64,000 nt of DNA from Phototrophicus methaneseepsis (GTDB lineage Bacteria > Chloroflexota > Anaerolineae > Aggregatilineales > Phototrophicaceae): NCBI RefSeq assembly GCF_015500095.1, contig NZ_CP062983.1, positions 3,968,001 through 4,032,000 of the forward strand, read 5' to 3'. A model generated the notes under the pieces. That model saw only the letters and a program-made list of their open reading frames with translations, searched no databases and was not told the DNA's origin. The position numbers and the translations under genes were made by a program. Each line of letters begins with the position of its first letter. Within the stretch, counting starts at the first letter, position 1. Positions 1-7,191 of the stretch are shown in pieces.

Positions 1-273
1 GCAGGGCGTGGCTTTGATATACGCGAGAACATCATCAGCGAACATATCCTGACGCCATTGGATTTACAGGTTATGTCTGGTGCGTGGCGCGGCGCGCTCT
101 ACGGTCCCTCTGCCAATAAAACATTCACGGCCTTTTTGCGGCCGCATAACCGCAGCCGAGATATTCAGCGACTTTACTTTGTGGGCGGCACAACCCACCC
201 TGGGGGCGGCATCCCGATGGTGACGCTCTCCGGTAAAACAGTCGCCCAGATGATTATTGATGATATTGTGTGA
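1..273 (+). CDS. CrtI-family carotenoid/phytoene desaturase, C-terminal fragment
   Basis: The reading frame is open from base 1 and stops with TGA at 271-273, so only about 90 C-terminal residues are present. The motif YFVGGTTHPGGGIPMV followed by LSGK is the C-terminal FAD-binding signature of the CrtI family, which desaturates or isomerises carotenoids (phytoene desaturase and relatives). The preceding stretch, with an NRS segment just before this motif, fits the family. The N-terminal Rossmann dinucleotide motif lies outside the window, so the exact reaction (desaturase, ketolase or retinol-saturase-like) cannot be told. The next gene starts 16 bases downstream on the same strand and may be co-transcribed. 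Confidence 0.85.
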   Translation, partial: AGRGFDIRENIISEHILTPLDLQVMSGAWRGALYGPSANKTFTAFLRPHNRSRDIQRLYFVGGTTHPGGGIPMVTLSGKTVAQMIIDDIV

Positions 274-289
274 ATGACTATAAGAAATA

Positions 290-1192
290 ATGAAAGCCTA
301 CTACACCGACGTTTTTGTCCTGCCACTGCCAGAGGGGCATCGCTTCCCTATGGCGAAATATCATCGTCTAAGGGAACGCATCCTGGCTACAAACACGCTC
401 CCGGCAGAAAATCTCATCATCCCAGACGCAGCCACCGACGAAGATATTCTGCGCTGTCACACCCGTGATTACCTCGAAAAAGTGAAAAACGGGACGCTCA
501 GCCATCAAGAAGTGCTGCGGATTGGCTTCCCATGGACGCCAGAAATGGTCGAACGCTCAAGACGGTCTTCTGGTGCGACGATCTGCGCGAGTATGACCGC
601 TCTAGAAGAAGGCGTTTCTGCCAATCTTGCAGGGGGCACGCATCATGCAGGCCGGGACTTCGGGGCGGGGTTTTCCGTGTTTTGTGATGCAGGCATCGCA
701 GCACGGGCCTTACAAGCCAGGAAGATGGTCGAACGCGTGCTGGTTGTGGATTGTGATGTGCACCAGGGGAATGGCACAGCAGATGTCTGCCAGGGCGACC
801 CCAGCATTTACACCTTTTCTATCCATGGGGAGAAGAACTTCCCCTTTCGTAAAATACCCGGAGACCTAGACCTCGGCTTGCCCAATGACACAGGAGATGA
901 TCCTTATCTGGAAACGCTGGAATTCGCCCTGGAGCGGATATTAAGCGTCTTCGACCCGGACCTGGCCATTTACCAGGCAGGGGCAGATCCTTACATTGGC
1001 GACCGTTTAGGTAAGCTCGCACTCAGCAAAGAAGGCTTGGCGCGTCGTGATCGGCTGGTTATGGAGATGCTGCGAAGTGAGTCGATTCCTGTTGCTGTGA
1101 CAATGGGCGGCGGTTATGCCCCAGAGATCGAGCATATTGTGGATATTCACCTGCAAACGATCCGCATTGCCGCCCAATATGCCACAGGCTGA
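290..1192 (+). CDS. histone deacetylase superfamily (AcuC/HDAC-like) amidohydrolase
   Basis: 300 residues, the usual size for a bacterial class IV/AcuC-like member of the arginase/deacetylase fold. The active site is legible: a His pair (H118-H119, in GGTHHA), zinc ligands D156 and H158 (in DCDVHQGNG), D233 in QAGADP, and the GGGY motif near the C-terminus carrying the transition-state Tyr. The family removes acyl groups from lysine side chains, polyamines or acetoin-related substrates; the substrate here is unknown. The gene follows the CrtI-type gene by 16 bases and ends 1 base from the convergent MaoC gene. All catalytic positions appear intact, so an active enzyme is expected. Confidence 0.9.
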   Translation: MKAYYTDVFVLPLPEGHRFPMAKYHRLRERILATNTLPAENLIIPDAATDEDILRCHTRDYLEKVKNGTLSHQEVLRIGFPWTPEMVERSRRSSGATICASMTALEEGVSANLAGGTHHAGRDFGAGFSVFCDAGIAARALQARKMVERVLVVDCDVHQGNGTADVCQGDPSIYTFSIHGEKNFPFRKIPGDLDLGLPNDTGDDPYLETLEFALERILSVFDPDLAIYQAGADPYIGDRLGKLALSKEGLARRDRLVMEMLRSESIPVAVTMGGGYAPEIEHIVDIHLQTIRIAAQYATG

Positions 1193-1193
1193 A

Positions 1194-1676
1194 TTATGAC
1201 GAGGCTTCTTCCTGAGGTGCAGATGCCATCAGTAAGGTTAAATTCCCCTTCTGTACCGTTTTTCCATCCTGGTTGACGATCTTCATATCAAGCGTGACGA
1301 CCCCGCCACCCAAACGACGCGCTTCTTTTTTGTCGCTAACGACGATCTCAGCATGGATCGTATCACCAATATAGACAGGCACGCTGAACTTCATCTCTAG
1401 GCCACGGAAACCCAACACAGTCCGTTCCAGAATACCGAGCTGGTACGCCTGCCCAACGGCATAGCTAATCGTCAGCATCCCATGAGCAACACGCTGCCCC
1501 ATAAAGGAGGTTTTGCAATATTCGGCATCCGTATGCATGGGGTTAAAGTCGCCCGTCAGGGCAGCGAATTGCACAATATCCGCTTCTGTAATCGTACGTC
1601 CCCGCGTCATCATCTGGGAACCGACTTCAAATTCTTCAAAATAAAGGCCACGTGGGGGCTGGAGCTCTGCTGCCAT
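1194..1676 (-). CDS. MaoC-like (R)-specific enoyl-CoA hydratase / hotdog dehydratase
   Basis: Hotdog-fold protein of about 160 residues. The hydratase signature is visible as FAALTGDFNPMH followed by VAHGML, which supplies the catalytic Asp and His of (R)-specific enoyl-CoA hydratases. I place the start at 1676 because GGGAGA (about 1683-1688) sits six bases upstream. An upstream ATG at 1712 would add 12 residues but has no ribosome-binding site. The likely role is hydration of 2-enoyl-CoA in fatty acid, PHA or acyl-CoA metabolism; the substrate is unknown. It is convergent with the deacetylase-like gene and stands alone on its strand. Confidence 0.85.
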   Translation of the reverse strand: MAAELQPPRGLYFEEFEVGSQMMTRGRTITEADIVQFAALTGDFNPMHTDAEYCKTSFMGQRVAHGMLTISYAVGQAYQLGILERTVLGFRGLEMKFSVPVYIGDTIHAEIVVSDKKEARRLGGGVVTLDMKIVNQDGKTVQKGNLTLLMASAPQEEASS

Positions 1677-1807
1677 AATAGGTCTCCCTAATGTGGGTGA
1701 ATTCTGGTTCATCTTATCAAAAGCAAAATAAAACTGAACGCCTATCTTAACACCACAAGTCTGATGAGGATGCTACTACCGAGGAATACAGATATGGCAA
1801 AGGGCAC

Positions 1808-2203
1808 TTAATCCGCACGATGCTTTTCGATGACAGACATAAGCTGGTCAATCAGATTATTTGTTTCAAGCGGCTTCGACAAATAAGCATCGAAGCCAGC
1901 ATCATAGGCATCCTGCTCCACACTGACTGAGTGATAAGCAGTAATGGCCACAACGGGAAGATGTGCCAGGTCACTACGAGCGCGTATTCTGGATAATGTT
2001 TCCCATCCATCCATCTGTGGCATGGCTAAATCCATAATCACAAGCGTTGGTTGGTAACTTTCCAGGACGATTAAGCATTCGTAGCCATCACGCGCGACAC
2101 GCACTTCTGCGCCATGATGCAGTAAAATTTTAGTGACCATTTGCAGGCTATCAAACTCATCCTCGACGAGCAAGACATGCCAGCCGTCTATCCGATCCGT
2201 CAT
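1808..2203 (-). CDS. single-domain response regulator (receiver only)
   Basis: 131 residues forming one CheY-like receiver with no output domain. Acidic pocket E14-D15-E16 (in LLVEDE), phospho-acceptor D58 (in IMDLAMPQMDGW), switch T88 and K110 (in LSKP) are all present. It is the third gene of a minus-strand cluster: LOV histidine kinase, receiver, receiver, separated by 109 and 59 bases. Stand-alone receivers of this type relay phosphate or bind a partner protein rather than DNA. The likely donor is the upstream kinase, but this is inferred from position only. Confidence 0.93.
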   Translation of the reverse strand: MTDRIDGWHVLLVEDEFDSLQMVTKILLHHGAEVRVARDGYECLIVLESYQPTLVIMDLAMPQMDGWETLSRIRARSDLAHLPVVAITAYHSVSVEQDAYDAGFDAYLSKPLETNNLIDQLMSVIEKHRAD

Positions 2204-2262: not shown

Positions 2263-2658
2263 TTAATCACAAAATTCGTCCAGGCAGCGATGAATCTCTT
2301 CCAGGAAAGAATCAATACGAAAAGGCTTGGAAATATAGCCGTTAAATCCCGCGTCCAGGGCTTTTTCACGGTCACCAGCCATTGCGTGTGCAGTCAGCGC
2401 GATAATCGGCACACTATTGAGCGAGGTCTCATGACGTACGGCTTCCAGCATTTGCCAACCATCCATATTTGGCATCGACAAATCCAAAAGGATGAAGGTC
2501 GGCACAACGGTCTGTAGGACGCTCAGGCCTTCAATGCCATCGCGCGCCACATGGACTTTGGCCCCGCCAAAGCTGAGCACTTTGCGCGCCACATTGAGGT
2601 TATCCAATTCATCATCGACGATCAGCACCAACCAGTCTTTCATCTCTTTGCTAATCAT
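2263..2658 (-). CDS. single-domain response regulator (receiver only)
   Basis: 131 residues, receiver domain only, paralogous to the gene just downstream. D15-D16-E17 pocket, D59 (in LLDLSMPNMDGW), T89 and K111 (in ISKP) are intact. A purine-rich AAAGG sequence lies upstream of the ATG. Having two receivers after one kinase suggests either a branched pathway or a phosphate sink. It carries no DNA-binding or enzymatic output domain. Confidence 0.93.
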   Translation of the reverse strand: MISKEMKDWLVLIVDDELDNLNVARKVLSFGGAKVHVARDGIEGLSVLQTVVPTFILLDLSMPNMDGWQMLEAVRHETSLNSVPIIALTAHAMAGDREKALDAGFNGYISKPFRIDSFLEEIHRCLDEFCD

Positions 2659-2767: not shown

Positions 2768-4651
2768 TTAATCCGCAGGCTGTAAAGGTAAGATGATGGT
2801 AACTGTCGTCCCCTTACCAAGCTGGCTCTGCAGACGGATATTCCCCCCCATCATCAGGCACAGCTTGCGAACAATCGTCAGGCCCAGGCCAGACCCACCT
2901 TGCTTACGGCTGGATGAATCATCCACCTGGCGGAATTCTTCAAAAATTGTCTCCTGCATATGCGACGGAATACCAATACCTGTGTCGCTGACGATGAGCT
3001 TCCAGGCATCATTCCCGTGCTTTTGAATCTGCATAGTTACCCTGCCCTCGTCCGTGAACTTAATCGCATTCGAGAGAAGGTTAATGGCAATTTGCCGTAA
3101 GCGCGATTCATCGCCCATCAAAGCGGTCGGCATACGCTCATCCAGTATATGCCGGAAGGCTATTTGTTTTTGTTCAGCGAGTCCTTCCACCTGAGCGACA
3201 ATATCTTCCATCCATTCTTTGATCACAAATGGCTTGATGATCAAATCCATACGGCCAGCCTCAATCTTAGAGAGGTCCAGCACATCATTGATGAGCTCTA
3301 GCAGATGTTTGGCGTTAACCAGAACACGATCCTGGTAATAAGTCTGCTCATCAGTCAGGTCACCGGCCATACCAGCGAGTTGAATATCCGTATAGCCAAT
3401 AATCGCATTAAGCGGCGTACGCAACTCATGAGACATCGTCGCCAGAAACTGGCTCTTGAGCCGAACAGCTTCTTCAGCCTGCCGCCGCGCAATCGACAGC
3501 GCACCATTCGCTTGAATGAGGGCTTCCGTCTGCTCCTGGATTTTTTCCTCAGTATGGACACGCTGCGTCACGTCCGTACTAATGCCCACAAAGTGCGTCA
3601 ATTCGCCACGTTCGTTTGTAATCGGCGCAATACGCAGCTCGTTATAGAACAACGTCCCGTCCTGGCGATAATTGCGTATAACAACCGTGCAGCTACGGGC
3701 CTCTCGCAGCGCAGCGCGGATTTCATGCACACCGGGCTGGTCACGGTCATCATTCTGCAAGAAGCGGCAATTGCGGCCAATCACGTCAATGGCAGAATAG
3801 CCCGTCATCTGTTCAAAGACAGGGTTTACATAGATCAGGGGCATATCTGGTAACTGAGCATCTGCAATCGAAATGCCGGATGGGCTGGCCTCAATCGCCT
3901 GGTTGCGCAGCAAAAGCTGCATCTCAACCTGTTTCTGGTCAGTGATATCGCGCGCGATGAAATAGGTTCTCTGCTCTTCTGGCACCGTTGTGGACTTCCA
4001 GGAGAGCCAACAGTAGGTACCATCATAACGCCGATAGCGGTTCTCAAATTCCAACACATGGCGTCCGGTCACTGCATGGGCGGCGATTTCTTGAATGCGT
4101 TCCATATCTTCAGGATGGACGTAATCGAGAAAGTTCGTCCCGATCATTTCCTCCGGCTTATAGCCTAATATCGGCAGGACAGCAGGATTGAGCCGGACAA
4201 ATGTGCCATCAAATTCCTTAATACCAACGATGTCCTGGGATAAATCGAAGATGCGATCCATTTCAGATTTACTGGATCGCGGGGAGGTTACATCCTGCCA
4301 AACACCCGTGACCGTCTCTAAACCTTCTTCATTGACATGCATCATGCAGGTGCCTTCCAGGACACGCAGCGCGCCCGTTTTAGTGCGGACAGCAAACTGC
4401 AGAGATCCACATGGGCCCTCACCCAACTGGAGTTTTTCTACATGTTGATGCAGGGAGCCATCTGCTTGCAGCGAAAAAGAAACATCAAATAGATTGAGCG
4501 ACATGACTTCATCAGCATCATAACCCAGGGTGCTTAAACATAACGGGTTGGCATAAAGGACATCGCCGGATGCTGCCATGACACAAACCAGACAATTGAT
4601 GTTAGCCAGCAGAGCTTCCAGAGATACACCAACCTCCTGAAACGCCTTCAT
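2768..4651 (-). CDS. PAS-PAS-LOV sensor histidine kinase (blue-light receptor type)
   Basis: 627 residues, apparently cytosolic (no membrane segment seen). Order: PAS about 10-120, PAS about 130-245, LOV about 250-365, HisKA with H408 in TMSHELRTPLN, then HATPase_c (N-box NLLSNAIKF, G1 DTGIGIP, G2 GSGLGL). The third PAS unit carries the flavin-binding LOV signature GRNCRFLQ with adduct-forming C295, plus the two chromophore-contacting Asn, N327 (in RNYRQDG) and N337 (in FYNEL). The usual Gln in the last strand (FVGxQ) is Ser here (S358, in FVGIST). Known LOV kinases form a flavin-cysteinyl adduct in blue light and change kinase activity; activity here is inferred. The two receivers downstream are the natural partners. 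Confidence 0.92.
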   Translation of the reverse strand: MKAFQEVGVSLEALLANINCLVCVMAASGDVLYANPLCLSTLGYDADEVMSLNLFDVSFSLQADGSLHQHVEKLQLGEGPCGSLQFAVRTKTGALRVLEGTCMMHVNEEGLETVTGVWQDVTSPRSSKSEMDRIFDLSQDIVGIKEFDGTFVRLNPAVLPILGYKPEEMIGTNFLDYVHPEDMERIQEIAAHAVTGRHVLEFENRYRRYDGTYCWLSWKSTTVPEEQRTYFIARDITDQKQVEMQLLLRNQAIEASPSGISIADAQLPDMPLIYVNPVFEQMTGYSAIDVIGRNCRFLQNDDRDQPGVHEIRAALREARSCTVVIRNYRQDGTLFYNELRIAPITNERGELTHFVGISTDVTQRVHTEEKIQEQTEALIQANGALSIARRQAEEAVRLKSQFLATMSHELRTPLNAIIGYTDIQLAGMAGDLTDEQTYYQDRVLVNAKHLLELINDVLDLSKIEAGRMDLIIKPFVIKEWMEDIVAQVEGLAEQKQIAFRHILDERMPTALMGDESRLRQIAINLLSNAIKFTDEGRVTMQIQKHGNDAWKLIVSDTGIGIPSHMQETIFEEFRQVDDSSSRKQGGSGLGLTIVRKLCLMMGGNIRLQSQLGKGTTVTIILPLQPAD

Positions 4652-4881: not shown

Positions 4882-7191
4882 TTAGCCTTCTTCGGTGGCT
4901 TCAGGCGTCACGTCGACATCGGCATCTTCTGTCGCTTCAGCGGCTGCCTCATCTTCAGCAGCTTCTTCAGTGACTTCCTCGGTAACTTCTTCAGCCGTGT
5001 CCGTTGCAACAACTTCTTCTTCAACTGTCGCCGTCTCATCAATCGTTTGCTCGATGGCGGTATCCGTTGTGGTATCCAAAGGTGCAGCAGCGGTCGGATT
5101 GGCAATCATCGGCGCAATCACGAGGGAGACAATTGCTAGCAGTTTCAGCAGGATGTTGAGGGATGGACCGGAGGTATCCTTAAATGGATCGCCAACAGTG
5201 TCGCCGACAACAGCAGCCTTATGAGCATCGGAGCCCTTACCGCCGAACTGTCCGGATTCGATGTATTTCTTGGCGTTATCCCAGGCACCGCCTGCATTCG
5301 CCATCATCACAGCCAGCATAAAGGCCGAAACGAGGGAACCCATCAACACACCAACGAGTGTGTATTCATCAACGAAGTGGCTCAGGGCGTTGCCACGACC
5401 GACAACGGTCAGGATTGCCAGCACGACCGGAACCGCCACAGCAATGATACCTGGCAGCAGCATTTGACGAATCGCGCTGTTGGTGCTGATCGCTACACAG
5501 GTTTCATAGTCAGGGTCGTTCTTACCTTCCATGATGCCCGGAATTTCTTTGAACTGGCGGCGGACTTCCATCACAATGTCCTGGGCCGCATTACCAACAG
5601 CAACCATGGTCAATGCGCTGAAGATATAAGGCAGCAAAGCCCCAATGAACAAACCGGTAATCAAGGTCGGAGAAAGCAGAATTTCCGAAATCACGACAGC
5701 TTCGCCACCAGCATCCAGGCCAAGAGCCGTAATAAAGGCGGCGCTGAGTGCCAACGCGGTCATCGCAGCACTACCAATCGCGAAGCCCTTACCCGTTGCA
5801 GCCGTCGTGTTACCTAGGCTATCCAGGGCATCGGTACGATCACGAACTTCGTCGGGCAGGTCGGACATTTCCGCGATACCACCCGCATTATCAGCAACCG
5901 GGCCATAAGCATCTGTCGCCAGGGTGATGCCGAGCGTCGCCAACATACCGACAGCCGCCACAGCCACACCGTACAGGCCAGTTGCCCAGGTGGCGATCAA
6001 GGTCACCAGGACGACGATGATTACAGGCGCCAGCGTACTCATCATACCCAGGGCCAAGCCACGAATGATGACGATACCCGCGCCACCTTCCGCACTTTGC
6101 GAGAGGGCCTTGGTCGGGCCGTACGAAGCCGCTGTAAAGTATTCCGTGAAGTAACCAATGGCAACACCACCAGCAAGGCCGCTGATCGTTGCAATCGCAA
6201 TCTCAAACGGCAGTTCCAGGAGCATTGTCAGCAGCACAACGACGACTGCTACAGCTACAGAAGCGCTGTAGGTACCACGGCGCAGGCTGCCCAGCAGCAT
6301 TTCCTGTGTGGCGCCTTCCTGCGTCTGAACGAGGAAGGTTGCGAGAATGCCAATGATGACACCGGAAGCAGCGACCAGAAGCGGGAAGATTTGGGCTGAA
6401 ACACTGTCGGAAGCCACACCTGCACCCAGGGTCGCCAGCGAGATAGCCGCGATGATAGAGCTGGCATAACTCTCGAACAGGTCGGACCCCATGCCCGCGA
6501 CATCACCGACATTATCGCCCACGTTATCCGCGATGGTTGCCGGGTTCCGCGGATCATCTTCTGGGATGCCAGCTTCTGTCTTACCAACGAGGTCAGCACC
6601 AACGTCAGCAGCCTTGGTATAGATACCGCCACCAACGCGAGCGAAGATTGCGATTGACGTCCCGCCAAAGCCGAAGCCAGCCAGCGCGCTCGCTGCTGTT
6701 GCTGCATCCCCAAGCTGGTTGAGGAACAACACAAACAGCACGCTCACACCCAGCAATGCCAGTGATACCACTGTGGTCCCCATGACGGTGCCGCCAGAGA
6801 AAGCCACGCGCAAGCCCTTATTCAAACTTTCTGAAGCAGCCTGTGTGGTACGGACATTAGCGCGAACAGCAATATACATACCGACATAGCCTGCGATGCC
6901 CGAAGCCAACGCACCCAGCAAGAATGCCAGCGCCGTCCAGGAAGAAATACCCGAACCCGCAACGTTGCTCAGGATGAACAGGATAATTGCCACGACGATG
7001 ACAAAAACCGTCACAGCAGTATATTCGCGGCGCAAGAAAGCCTGTGCGCCACGCTGAATAGCTTTCGCAATACGCTGCATGGTTTCATTACCAGCAGGCT
7101 GCGATAAGACGAAATTACCCTGGTAGATGGCAAAGGCCAGCCCGATGAGGCTGGCAACAACGCCAATACCACCAGCTAAAGTTACATCCAT
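4882..7191 (-). CDS. hppA: membrane-bound ion-translocating pyrophosphatase, K+-dependent type
   Basis: Polytopic protein of about 769 residues that couples PPi hydrolysis to H+ or Na+ export. Family motifs: GGGIYTKAADVGADLVGK, the Asp-rich IADNVGDNVGDVAG, DAYGPVADNAGG, and near the end GDTVGDPFKDTSGPS. The sequence GNTTAATGKG has Ala where K+-independent enzymes have Lys, marking the K+-dependent subclass. The semi-conserved Glu is in DLFESY, the placement of Na+-pumping members; this is inference. I chose the start at 7191 because GGGAGT sits about six bases upstream; an earlier in-frame ATG at 7242 lacks this. The last 60 or so residues are an unusual acidic Thr/Glu/Ala-rich tail with no family counterpart that I know. 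Confidence 0.96.
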   Translation of the reverse strand: MDVTLAGGIGVVASLIGLAFAIYQGNFVLSQPAGNETMQRIAKAIQRGAQAFLRREYTAVTVFVIVVAIILFILSNVAGSGISSWTALAFLLGALASGIAGYVGMYIAVRANVRTTQAASESLNKGLRVAFSGGTVMGTTVVSLALLGVSVLFVLFLNQLGDAATAASALAGFGFGGTSIAIFARVGGGIYTKAADVGADLVGKTEAGIPEDDPRNPATIADNVGDNVGDVAGMGSDLFESYASSIIAAISLATLGAGVASDSVSAQIFPLLVAASGVIIGILATFLVQTQEGATQEMLLGSLRRGTYSASVAVAVVVVLLTMLLELPFEIAIATISGLAGGVAIGYFTEYFTAASYGPTKALSQSAEGGAGIVIIRGLALGMMSTLAPVIIVVLVTLIATWATGLYGVAVAAVGMLATLGITLATDAYGPVADNAGGIAEMSDLPDEVRDRTDALDSLGNTTAATGKGFAIGSAAMTALALSAAFITALGLDAGGEAVVISEILLSPTLITGLFIGALLPYIFSALTMVAVGNAAQDIVMEVRRQFKEIPGIMEGKNDPDYETCVAISTNSAIRQMLLPGIIAVAVPVVLAILTVVGRGNALSHFVDEYTLVGVLMGSLVSAFMLAVMMANAGGAWDNAKKYIESGQFGGKGSDAHKAAVVGDTVGDPFKDTSGPSLNILLKLLAIVSLVIAPMIANPTAAAPLDTTTDTAIEQTIDETATVEEEVVATDTAEEVTEEVTEEAAEDEAAAEATEDADVDVTPEATEEG

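Follow-up and report, generated by a model that had tools for sequence, protein, structure and literature searches.

Serine in place of the flip glutamine in a predicted LOV histidine kinase of Phototrophicus methaneseepsis and its relatives

Introduction

The flip glutamine of LOV domains was long thought to be essential for signalling. About 350 natural LOV domains that lack it (LOV-ΔQ), with serine among the residues found at this site, were described in 2022, and a natural diguanylate cyclase with a Met-LOV was reported to respond to blue light (PMC9098866). All 19 replacements of the glutamine were tried in the engineered kinase YF1 and most were light-responsive; the residues named as unresponsive are Pro, His, Trp, Tyr and Arg, so that serine, by exclusion, would have kept the response (PMC9098866). 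The same authors favour a water relay as the route of the signal. A named Gln-to-Ser LOV variant was not found in the literature searched for one. At the corresponding site of AsLOV2, Ala and Leu blue-shift the absorption, to 442 and 438 nm respectively, and slow recovery, and Asp, His and Asn make recovery faster (PMC3903614). Since these effects depend on the replacement, the kinetics of a Ser-LOV are not predictable from them.

LOV domains are also found on histidine kinases. Brucella LOV-HK (6ph2–6ph4, LOV-HWE) carries its LOV domain on what we take to be an HWE-type kinase, whereas the kinase described here is of the HisKA type. YF1 and SB2F1 (4gcz, 8a3u), engineered LOV-FixL kinases, share with the present protein a LOV domain, a helical linker and a HisKA-type kinase, and the heptad register of the linker matters in YF1 (PMC6798134). 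However, both have the glutamine, and the distance from the DVT motif to the phospho-acceptor histidine is 34 residues in 8a3u (counted from the alignment) against 46 here. The closest solved structures by fold, which are also among the closest by sequence, are those of Meiothermus ruber MrLOV (Mrub_1259, 9vf7) and PpSB2-LOV (7a6p); both have Gln and Trp where the LOV domain described below has Ser and Tyr.

That domain is encoded in Phototrophicus methaneseepsis, of which strain ZRK33 (CP051151, 5,631,885 bp) is a cultured deep-sea phototroph (PMC8941918). It resembles the catalogued LOV-ΔQ domains (PMC9098866) in keeping the pocket and the cysteine, in missing the glutamine and in having a residue, serine, reported there; the natural example tested in that work was a Met-LOV cyclase, whereas here a Ser-LOV histidine kinase recurs across genera together with a paired Trp-to-Tyr exchange.

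Materials and Methods

Relatives were sampled by overlapping searches covering 61 relatives, 98 genomes of the family, 154 of the order, 396 of the class and 400 of the phylum. The residue table holds 73 LOV-like loci among the matches listed, that is L001–L087 minus 14: L002 (the weak second match in the own genome), L003–L006 (from a scan of genome contigs) and L062–L070 (longer stretches). A contig scan with the whole kinase as query gave four distant relatives, which were left unused. Equivalent positions in AsLOV2 are given by a constant offset of 155, with AsLOV2 numbers as in PMC9098866. The LOV fold was predicted with eight LOV rows from virus contigs (pLDDT 92.5); a model from the single sequence was poor (pLDDT 50.6) and was discarded in favour of the former. 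The control for the gene neighbourhood consisted of nine genomes that had either no LOV match or Gln in the fetched LOV loci, plus G014.

Results

The window is the whole 64,000-nucleotide stretch of P. methaneseepsis DNA that was analysed, and coordinates count from its first base. The kinase gene and its predicted parts are as follows.

2768..4651, minus strand: PAS-PAS-LOV histidine kinase, 627 residues (ORF list; Pfam PAS three times, HisKA, HATPase_c; orthologues in six genomes of the family)
4289..4621, minus strand: PAS1, residues 11–121 (best Pfam stretch, PAS), little kept or almost missing in orthologues
3932..4249, minus strand: PAS2, residues 135–240 (best Pfam stretch, PAS_4; Pfam and orthologue identities)
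3563..3901, minus strand: LOV domain, the third PAS, Gln-less, about residues 251–363 (best PAS_9 stretch 268–363; structure alignment, residue table and fold model)
3428..3563, minus strand: coiled-coil-like linker, 46 residues from the DVT motif (T362) to H408; 74 residues (28 more) in four of six orthologues
3254..3457, minus strand: HisKA (DHp) domain, residues 399–466, with phospho-acceptor H408 in FLATMSHELRTP (Pfam)
2780..3115, minus strand: HATPase_c domain, residues 513–624 (Pfam)

The whole kinase matched HisKA with an E-value of 2.2e-20 and HATPase_c with 3.2e-31. The LOV domain lies N-terminal of both and the H-box is present, the layout by sequence of a HisKA-type LOV sensor histidine kinase. 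The score for the YtvA family NF052652 was 169.9 bits, short of the 250 bits set as its curated cut-off. Of the sensor domains, LOV is the best kept: 81–94 of 117 residues are identical to those of the six orthologues, against 39–68 of 116 for PAS2, and for PAS1 no more than 44 residues could be aligned in three of the six. The fold model resembles solved LOV domains, with query-normalised TM scores of 0.94–0.95 in Foldseek and LOV domains in all top five places; PpSB2-LOV, MrLOV and SB2F1 were among the top entries. A second LOV domain was not found in the P. methaneseepsis genome, where the other match (E 1.3e-4) is without the NCRFLQ motif; neither a phytochrome PHY domain (PF00360) nor a BLUF domain (PF04940) was found there.

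Five positions of the LOV domain are listed next.

3767..3769, minus strand: C295, adduct cysteine, codon TGC, equivalent to AsLOV2 C450 (invariant in 7/7 rows of the orthologue clade)
3671..3673, minus strand: N327, equivalent to AsLOV2 N482 (residue table)
3644..3646, minus strand: Y336, equivalent to AsLOV2 W491 (Tyr in 8/8 Ser-LOVs and Trp in 33/39 Gln-LOVs among the loci listed)
3641..3643, minus strand: N337, equivalent to AsLOV2 N492 (residue table)
3578..3580, minus strand: S358, codon AGT, in place of the flip glutamine, equivalent to AsLOV2 Q513 (alignments, residue table)

The initial annotation had placed C295, N327 and N337 in the third PAS domain, with the cysteine in GRNCRFLQ, and had put S358 where typical LOV domains have the Gln of FVGxQ; both assignments hold. 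The stretch FVGISTDVT aligned with YIGIQRDVT of PpSB2-LOV (7a6p; E 1.1e-37) with no gap, so that Ser occupies the place of the Gln. Ser358 again fell in the Gln column when the domain was aligned with eight relatives (two Ser-LOVs and six Gln-LOVs); neither alignment placed a Gln at the flip position. The domain thus has the GXNCRFLQ motif with the adduct cysteine and both flavin asparagines of canonical LOV domains, and has Ser358 instead of the glutamine on strand Iβ. This combination of retained LOV residues and a missing active-site glutamine is the one by which LOV-ΔQ domains were recognised (PMC9098866).

In the seven rows of the orthologue clade, N294, C295, R296, L298, Q299, R312, N327, N337, G356 and D360 are invariant, and they are nearly so in the 39 listed Gln-LOVs; we take these residues to line the flavin or to serve in signalling. 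By contrast, some pocket positions vary within the clade, among them residue 270, the equivalent of AsLOV2 N425 (M, I, T, Q or L), which counts against the reading as a Gln-less light sensor. Overall, the pocket other than the glutamine is largely intact and conserved and the model matches LOV crystal structures, in agreement with the earlier reading of the protein as a natural Gln-less LOV kinase. The initial annotation remarked that some LOV receptors work without the glutamine; it did not mention that natural LOV-ΔQ domains, Ser included, had already been catalogued (PMC9098866).

The cysteine was present in 49 of the 73 listed loci, and the flip position there was Gln in 39, Ser in 8, His in one and Leu in one. 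The eight Ser rows are the window kinase, its six orthologues (LOV domains 69–80% identical) and L025 (60%), and all eight keep the cysteine and both asparagines. The serine is encoded by AGT or AGC in six and by TCT or TCC in two of the eight, and within a single genus two species use different codons (L065 AGC, L067 TCT). Since two base changes separate AGY from TCN, the serine itself looks selected, unless it had multiple origins. Among the 24 listed loci without the cysteine, 11 keep the Gln and 13 have nine other kinds of residue. Judged from these sequences, the flip position drifts where the photochemistry is presumably gone, whereas the Ser clade shows Ser only. A close LOV relative, L013 (G030:C13:3914-4285), has Thr for the cysteine, Ser for N337 and Asn for the Gln; it is presumably a LOV-derived PAS domain that has lost its photochemistry.

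In a midpoint-rooted tree with the Ser column masked, the seven orthologous kinases formed one supported clade (97/85) among Gln-LOVs. When the Tyr column was masked as well, the Gln row L031 joined the seven in an unresolved group, which counts against our main reading. The trees set L025 apart from the other seven Ser-LOVs, but forcing all eight together was not rejected (AU p 0.197); a second origin of the serine in L025 is possible. Its kinase is of another kind, with PAS, LOV and GAF domains and HisKA, and with the histidine 551 residues after the DVT; three receiver-like stretches of 27–38% identity follow downstream, and no MaoC or pyrophosphatase match was found on its 11.4-kb contig. 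Because the Ser rows lie among Gln-LOVs on these midpoint-rooted trees, the loss of the glutamine looks derived, and here selected, rather than ancestral.

Residue 336 was Tyr in all eight listed Ser-LOVs, and in the 39 listed Gln-LOVs it was Trp in 33, Tyr in 2 (L038 and L072, which have Tyr without Ser) and another residue in 4. The equivalent W491 is a proposed electron donor to the flavin in AsLOV2 C450A (PMC12851924). In the fold model the two residues would fall on strands Hβ (90–101) and Iβ (107–116), a geometry deduced from the strand pattern. Of 14 LOV loci on virus contigs, L097/L107 (41% identical) alone has Ser, and it too has Tyr; the other 13, several of them near-copies of each other, have Gln and Trp. 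The raw association (Tyr in 8/8 against 2/39) gives a Fisher p of 1.4e-7 in a count that ignores kinship. A pair test found 2 independent pairs on supported branches and 3 on all branches, too few for significance, and with at most three origins in play kinship could be the source of the pairing. The viral Ser/Tyr protein (L097:1485-2411, on the 40.8-kb contig IMGVR_UViG_3300042520_003434) is a PAS-LOV protein with no effector recognisable by eye. Four unannotated records labelled "Listeria phage", H41–H44 (OR848423, OR847031, OR847435, OR848284), hold a LOV-like stretch that is 45% identical and possibly host DNA.

Of the seven clade kinases, three have a DVT-to-His distance of 46 residues and four have one of 74; the two lengths differ by exactly four heptads. 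By analogy, such heptad-spaced lengths fit a coiled-coil linker whose register matters, as it does in YF1. Among the loci listed, other kinases of the phylum with a directly linked LOV have linkers of 39 (three), 32 (one) and 38 residues (one), and four further listed ones have 139–430 residues between LOV and histidine. The linker here is shifted in register by +5 relative to SB2F1, and the rule stated for YF1 covers shifts of 0 and +1 only (PMC6798134). The light-repressed sign of YF1 and SB2F1 is therefore not transferable, and linker length did not yield a prediction of the sign. Two receivers are encoded next to the kinase.

2263..2658, minus strand: RR1, stand-alone receiver with a single Response_reg and phospho-site D59 (D15, D16, D59, T89 and K111 invariant in 7 sequences)
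1808..2203, minus strand: RR2, stand-alone receiver with a single Response_reg and phospho-site D58 (E14, D15, D58, T88 and K110 invariant in 7 sequences)

A linker of 46 residues is found in the Gln-LOV kinase L031 too, with receiver-like stretches of 28–36% identity downstream, so a kinase followed by receivers is not peculiar to Ser-LOVs. Within the family, RR1 has its seven best matches in the seven Ser-LOV genomes. The matches that come next include those in G022, G062, G063, G069 and G085 (56–62% identity), genomes in which homologues of RR1 and RR2 follow a related HisKA kinase. Four of these kinases (L148–L151) have an N-terminal HisKA_7TM membrane region and a PAS domain, and L152 has Cache-like and HAMP domains (the Cache match being below the Pfam cut-off); the NCRFLQ motif was found in none of the five. 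The DIT-to-His distance is 46 in 4/4 of the related 7TM-PAS kinases. From these comparisons, an existing kinase-receiver-receiver module probably acquired a LOV-bearing sensor, or the exchange ran the other way.

The genes beyond the receivers are the following.

1194..1712, minus strand: MaoC-type hydratase, the following gene on the same strand, in 6/6 orthologues
290..1192 (L069:15290-16192), plus strand: histone-deacetylase-family enzyme; the gene is convergent and separates the operon from the carotenoid cluster, in 5/6 orthologues
1..273, plus strand: 3' end (last 273 bases only) of a CrtI-type desaturase, the edge of a carotenoid and photolyase cluster beyond the window

The whole CrtI-type gene is L069:13738-15273, position 1 of the window being L069:15001. 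Kinase, RR1, RR2 and MaoC occur together at all six orthologous loci; the histone-deacetylase-family gene was not found in G014, the sole exception among the six. The cluster encodes CrtI-type desaturases, phytoene synthase, lycopene cyclase, Caroten_synth, a tocopherol-cyclase-like protein, a glycosyltransferase and DNA photolyase. The CrtI-type gene at the cluster edge, at least, occurs in 6/6 orthologues (in G026 it is cut off by the contig end); the photolyase appeared in two, L090 and L092, within fetched stretches of limited length. The initial annotation had spoken of a carotenoid desaturase upstream. A CrtI-type gene does adjoin, with the carotenoid link kept at every orthologous locus, but it is convergent and lies outside the LOV operon. 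In the control, MaoC and CrtI matches were both present in 5 of the 9 genomes and on the same contig in 0 of these 5, some of the assemblies being fragmented; in this small sample the joining of LOV operon and carotenoid genes thus goes with the Ser-LOV genomes. The CrtI-deacetylase adjacency also occurs in G003 and G008, and by gene order this pair is older than the junction with the LOV operon.

Three further observations concern neighbouring genes. That a histone-deacetylase-family gene lies beside a CrtI-type desaturase even in G003 and G008 hints at a carotenoid-tied role for it. A lactate/malate-dehydrogenase-like gene, named by sequence (L069:5678-6634), is situated between phytoene synthase and lycopene cyclase, likewise in G001 and G031. 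On the other side of the kinase (window 4882-5100), the C-terminal tail of an H+-pyrophosphatase is long, acidic and of low complexity, with abundant Glu, Ala and Thr, and the tail of the G001 orthologue is acidic too.

Discussion

The protein is probably a PAS-PAS-LOV histidine kinase that senses blue light and belongs to the Gln-less class. Blue light would lead to an adduct between C295 and FMN and to protonation of flavin N5. With no glutamine to flip, the change in hydrogen bonding would reach the β-sheet by way of Ser358, of water or of the backbone. From there it would travel via the A' and J helices and a rotation or bending of the heptad-registered coiled coil to the H408 bundle, and so shift the balance of kinase and phosphatase activities on the two receivers encoded alongside. 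From gene position alone, a connection with genes for pigments or photoprotection is plausible.

Some observations on the host fit this reading less well. Red and infrared light had large effects on growth of ZRK33, but blue light did little beyond darkness; bchG, a bacteriochlorophyll gene, rose under all lights, blue included (PMC8941918). The physiological signal could instead be carried by the two other PAS domains. A rival view, that the LOV domain is a relic which binds flavin and forms the adduct without signalling while PAS1 and PAS2 or dimerisation run the kinase, gains from the position of both PAS domains N-terminal of the LOV and from the weakened signalling of several model LOVs on loss of the glutamine (PMC9098866). 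We nevertheless consider it unlikely: the LOV domain is better conserved across the orthologues than PAS1 and PAS2, the serine is kept despite the change of codon with the cysteine and both asparagines invariant, and a relic pocket would be expected to drift as in the Cys-less paralogues.

The adduct cysteine, kept in all eight listed Ser-LOVs, also speaks against a sensor of flavin redox state or oxygen rather than light, in which photoreduction or chemical reduction of FMN to the N5-protonated state would drive signalling. This idea draws on the finding that an N5-protonated semiquinone signals without an adduct (PMC9098866) and on the anaerobic growth of ZRK33 (PMC8941918). However, Tyr replaces the Trp that is the proposed donor in AsLOV2 C450A, which disfavours the photoreduction route (PMC12851924), and the neighbourhood is light-related (carotenoids, photolyase); we regard such a sensor as quite improbable. 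An error of sequencing or assembly, or a substitution that arose by chance in a single strain, has next to no probability as the source of the serine, as the same Ser occurs at seven further loci in six other genomes, the orthologues refuting it, and CAA or CAG to AGT takes three base changes.

Within the favoured reading of a Gln-less blue-light sensor, a bolder proposal, in our view rather doubtful, is that the Ser-LOVs are a distinct two-residue photochemical class, with Ser at 513 and Tyr for the Trp491 donor. Removal of the donor would suppress photoreduction in a pocket that the missing glutamine leaves open to water, so that the adduct wins and water and Ser relay the signal. Two lineages at least would have acquired the pair, the Phototrophicaceae clade and the PAS-LOV protein of the virus contig, and such a LOV would have taken the place of a membrane sensor on the conserved kinase-receiver-receiver module beside carotenoid genes. 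No description of a Ser/Tyr LOV class was found in a literature search of titles and abstract openings, with supplements and most subscription papers outside its scope. The Ser-Tyr pairing is the newest element of this work, and it rests on two or three origins.

Natural Gln-less LOVs are a known kind, to which this protein, with photoactivity predicted, would add a well-conserved natural example. PMC9098866 argues how such LOVs signal largely from mutants made in the laboratory and a single natural Met-LOV cyclase. Seven orthologous kinases, one of them in a cultured phototroph, and an outlier LOV offer a natural experiment, since Gln-bearing relatives occur within the same family, and the clade makes the idea of a water relay testable. 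The conserved carotenoid neighbourhood suggests a possible target of the light signal.
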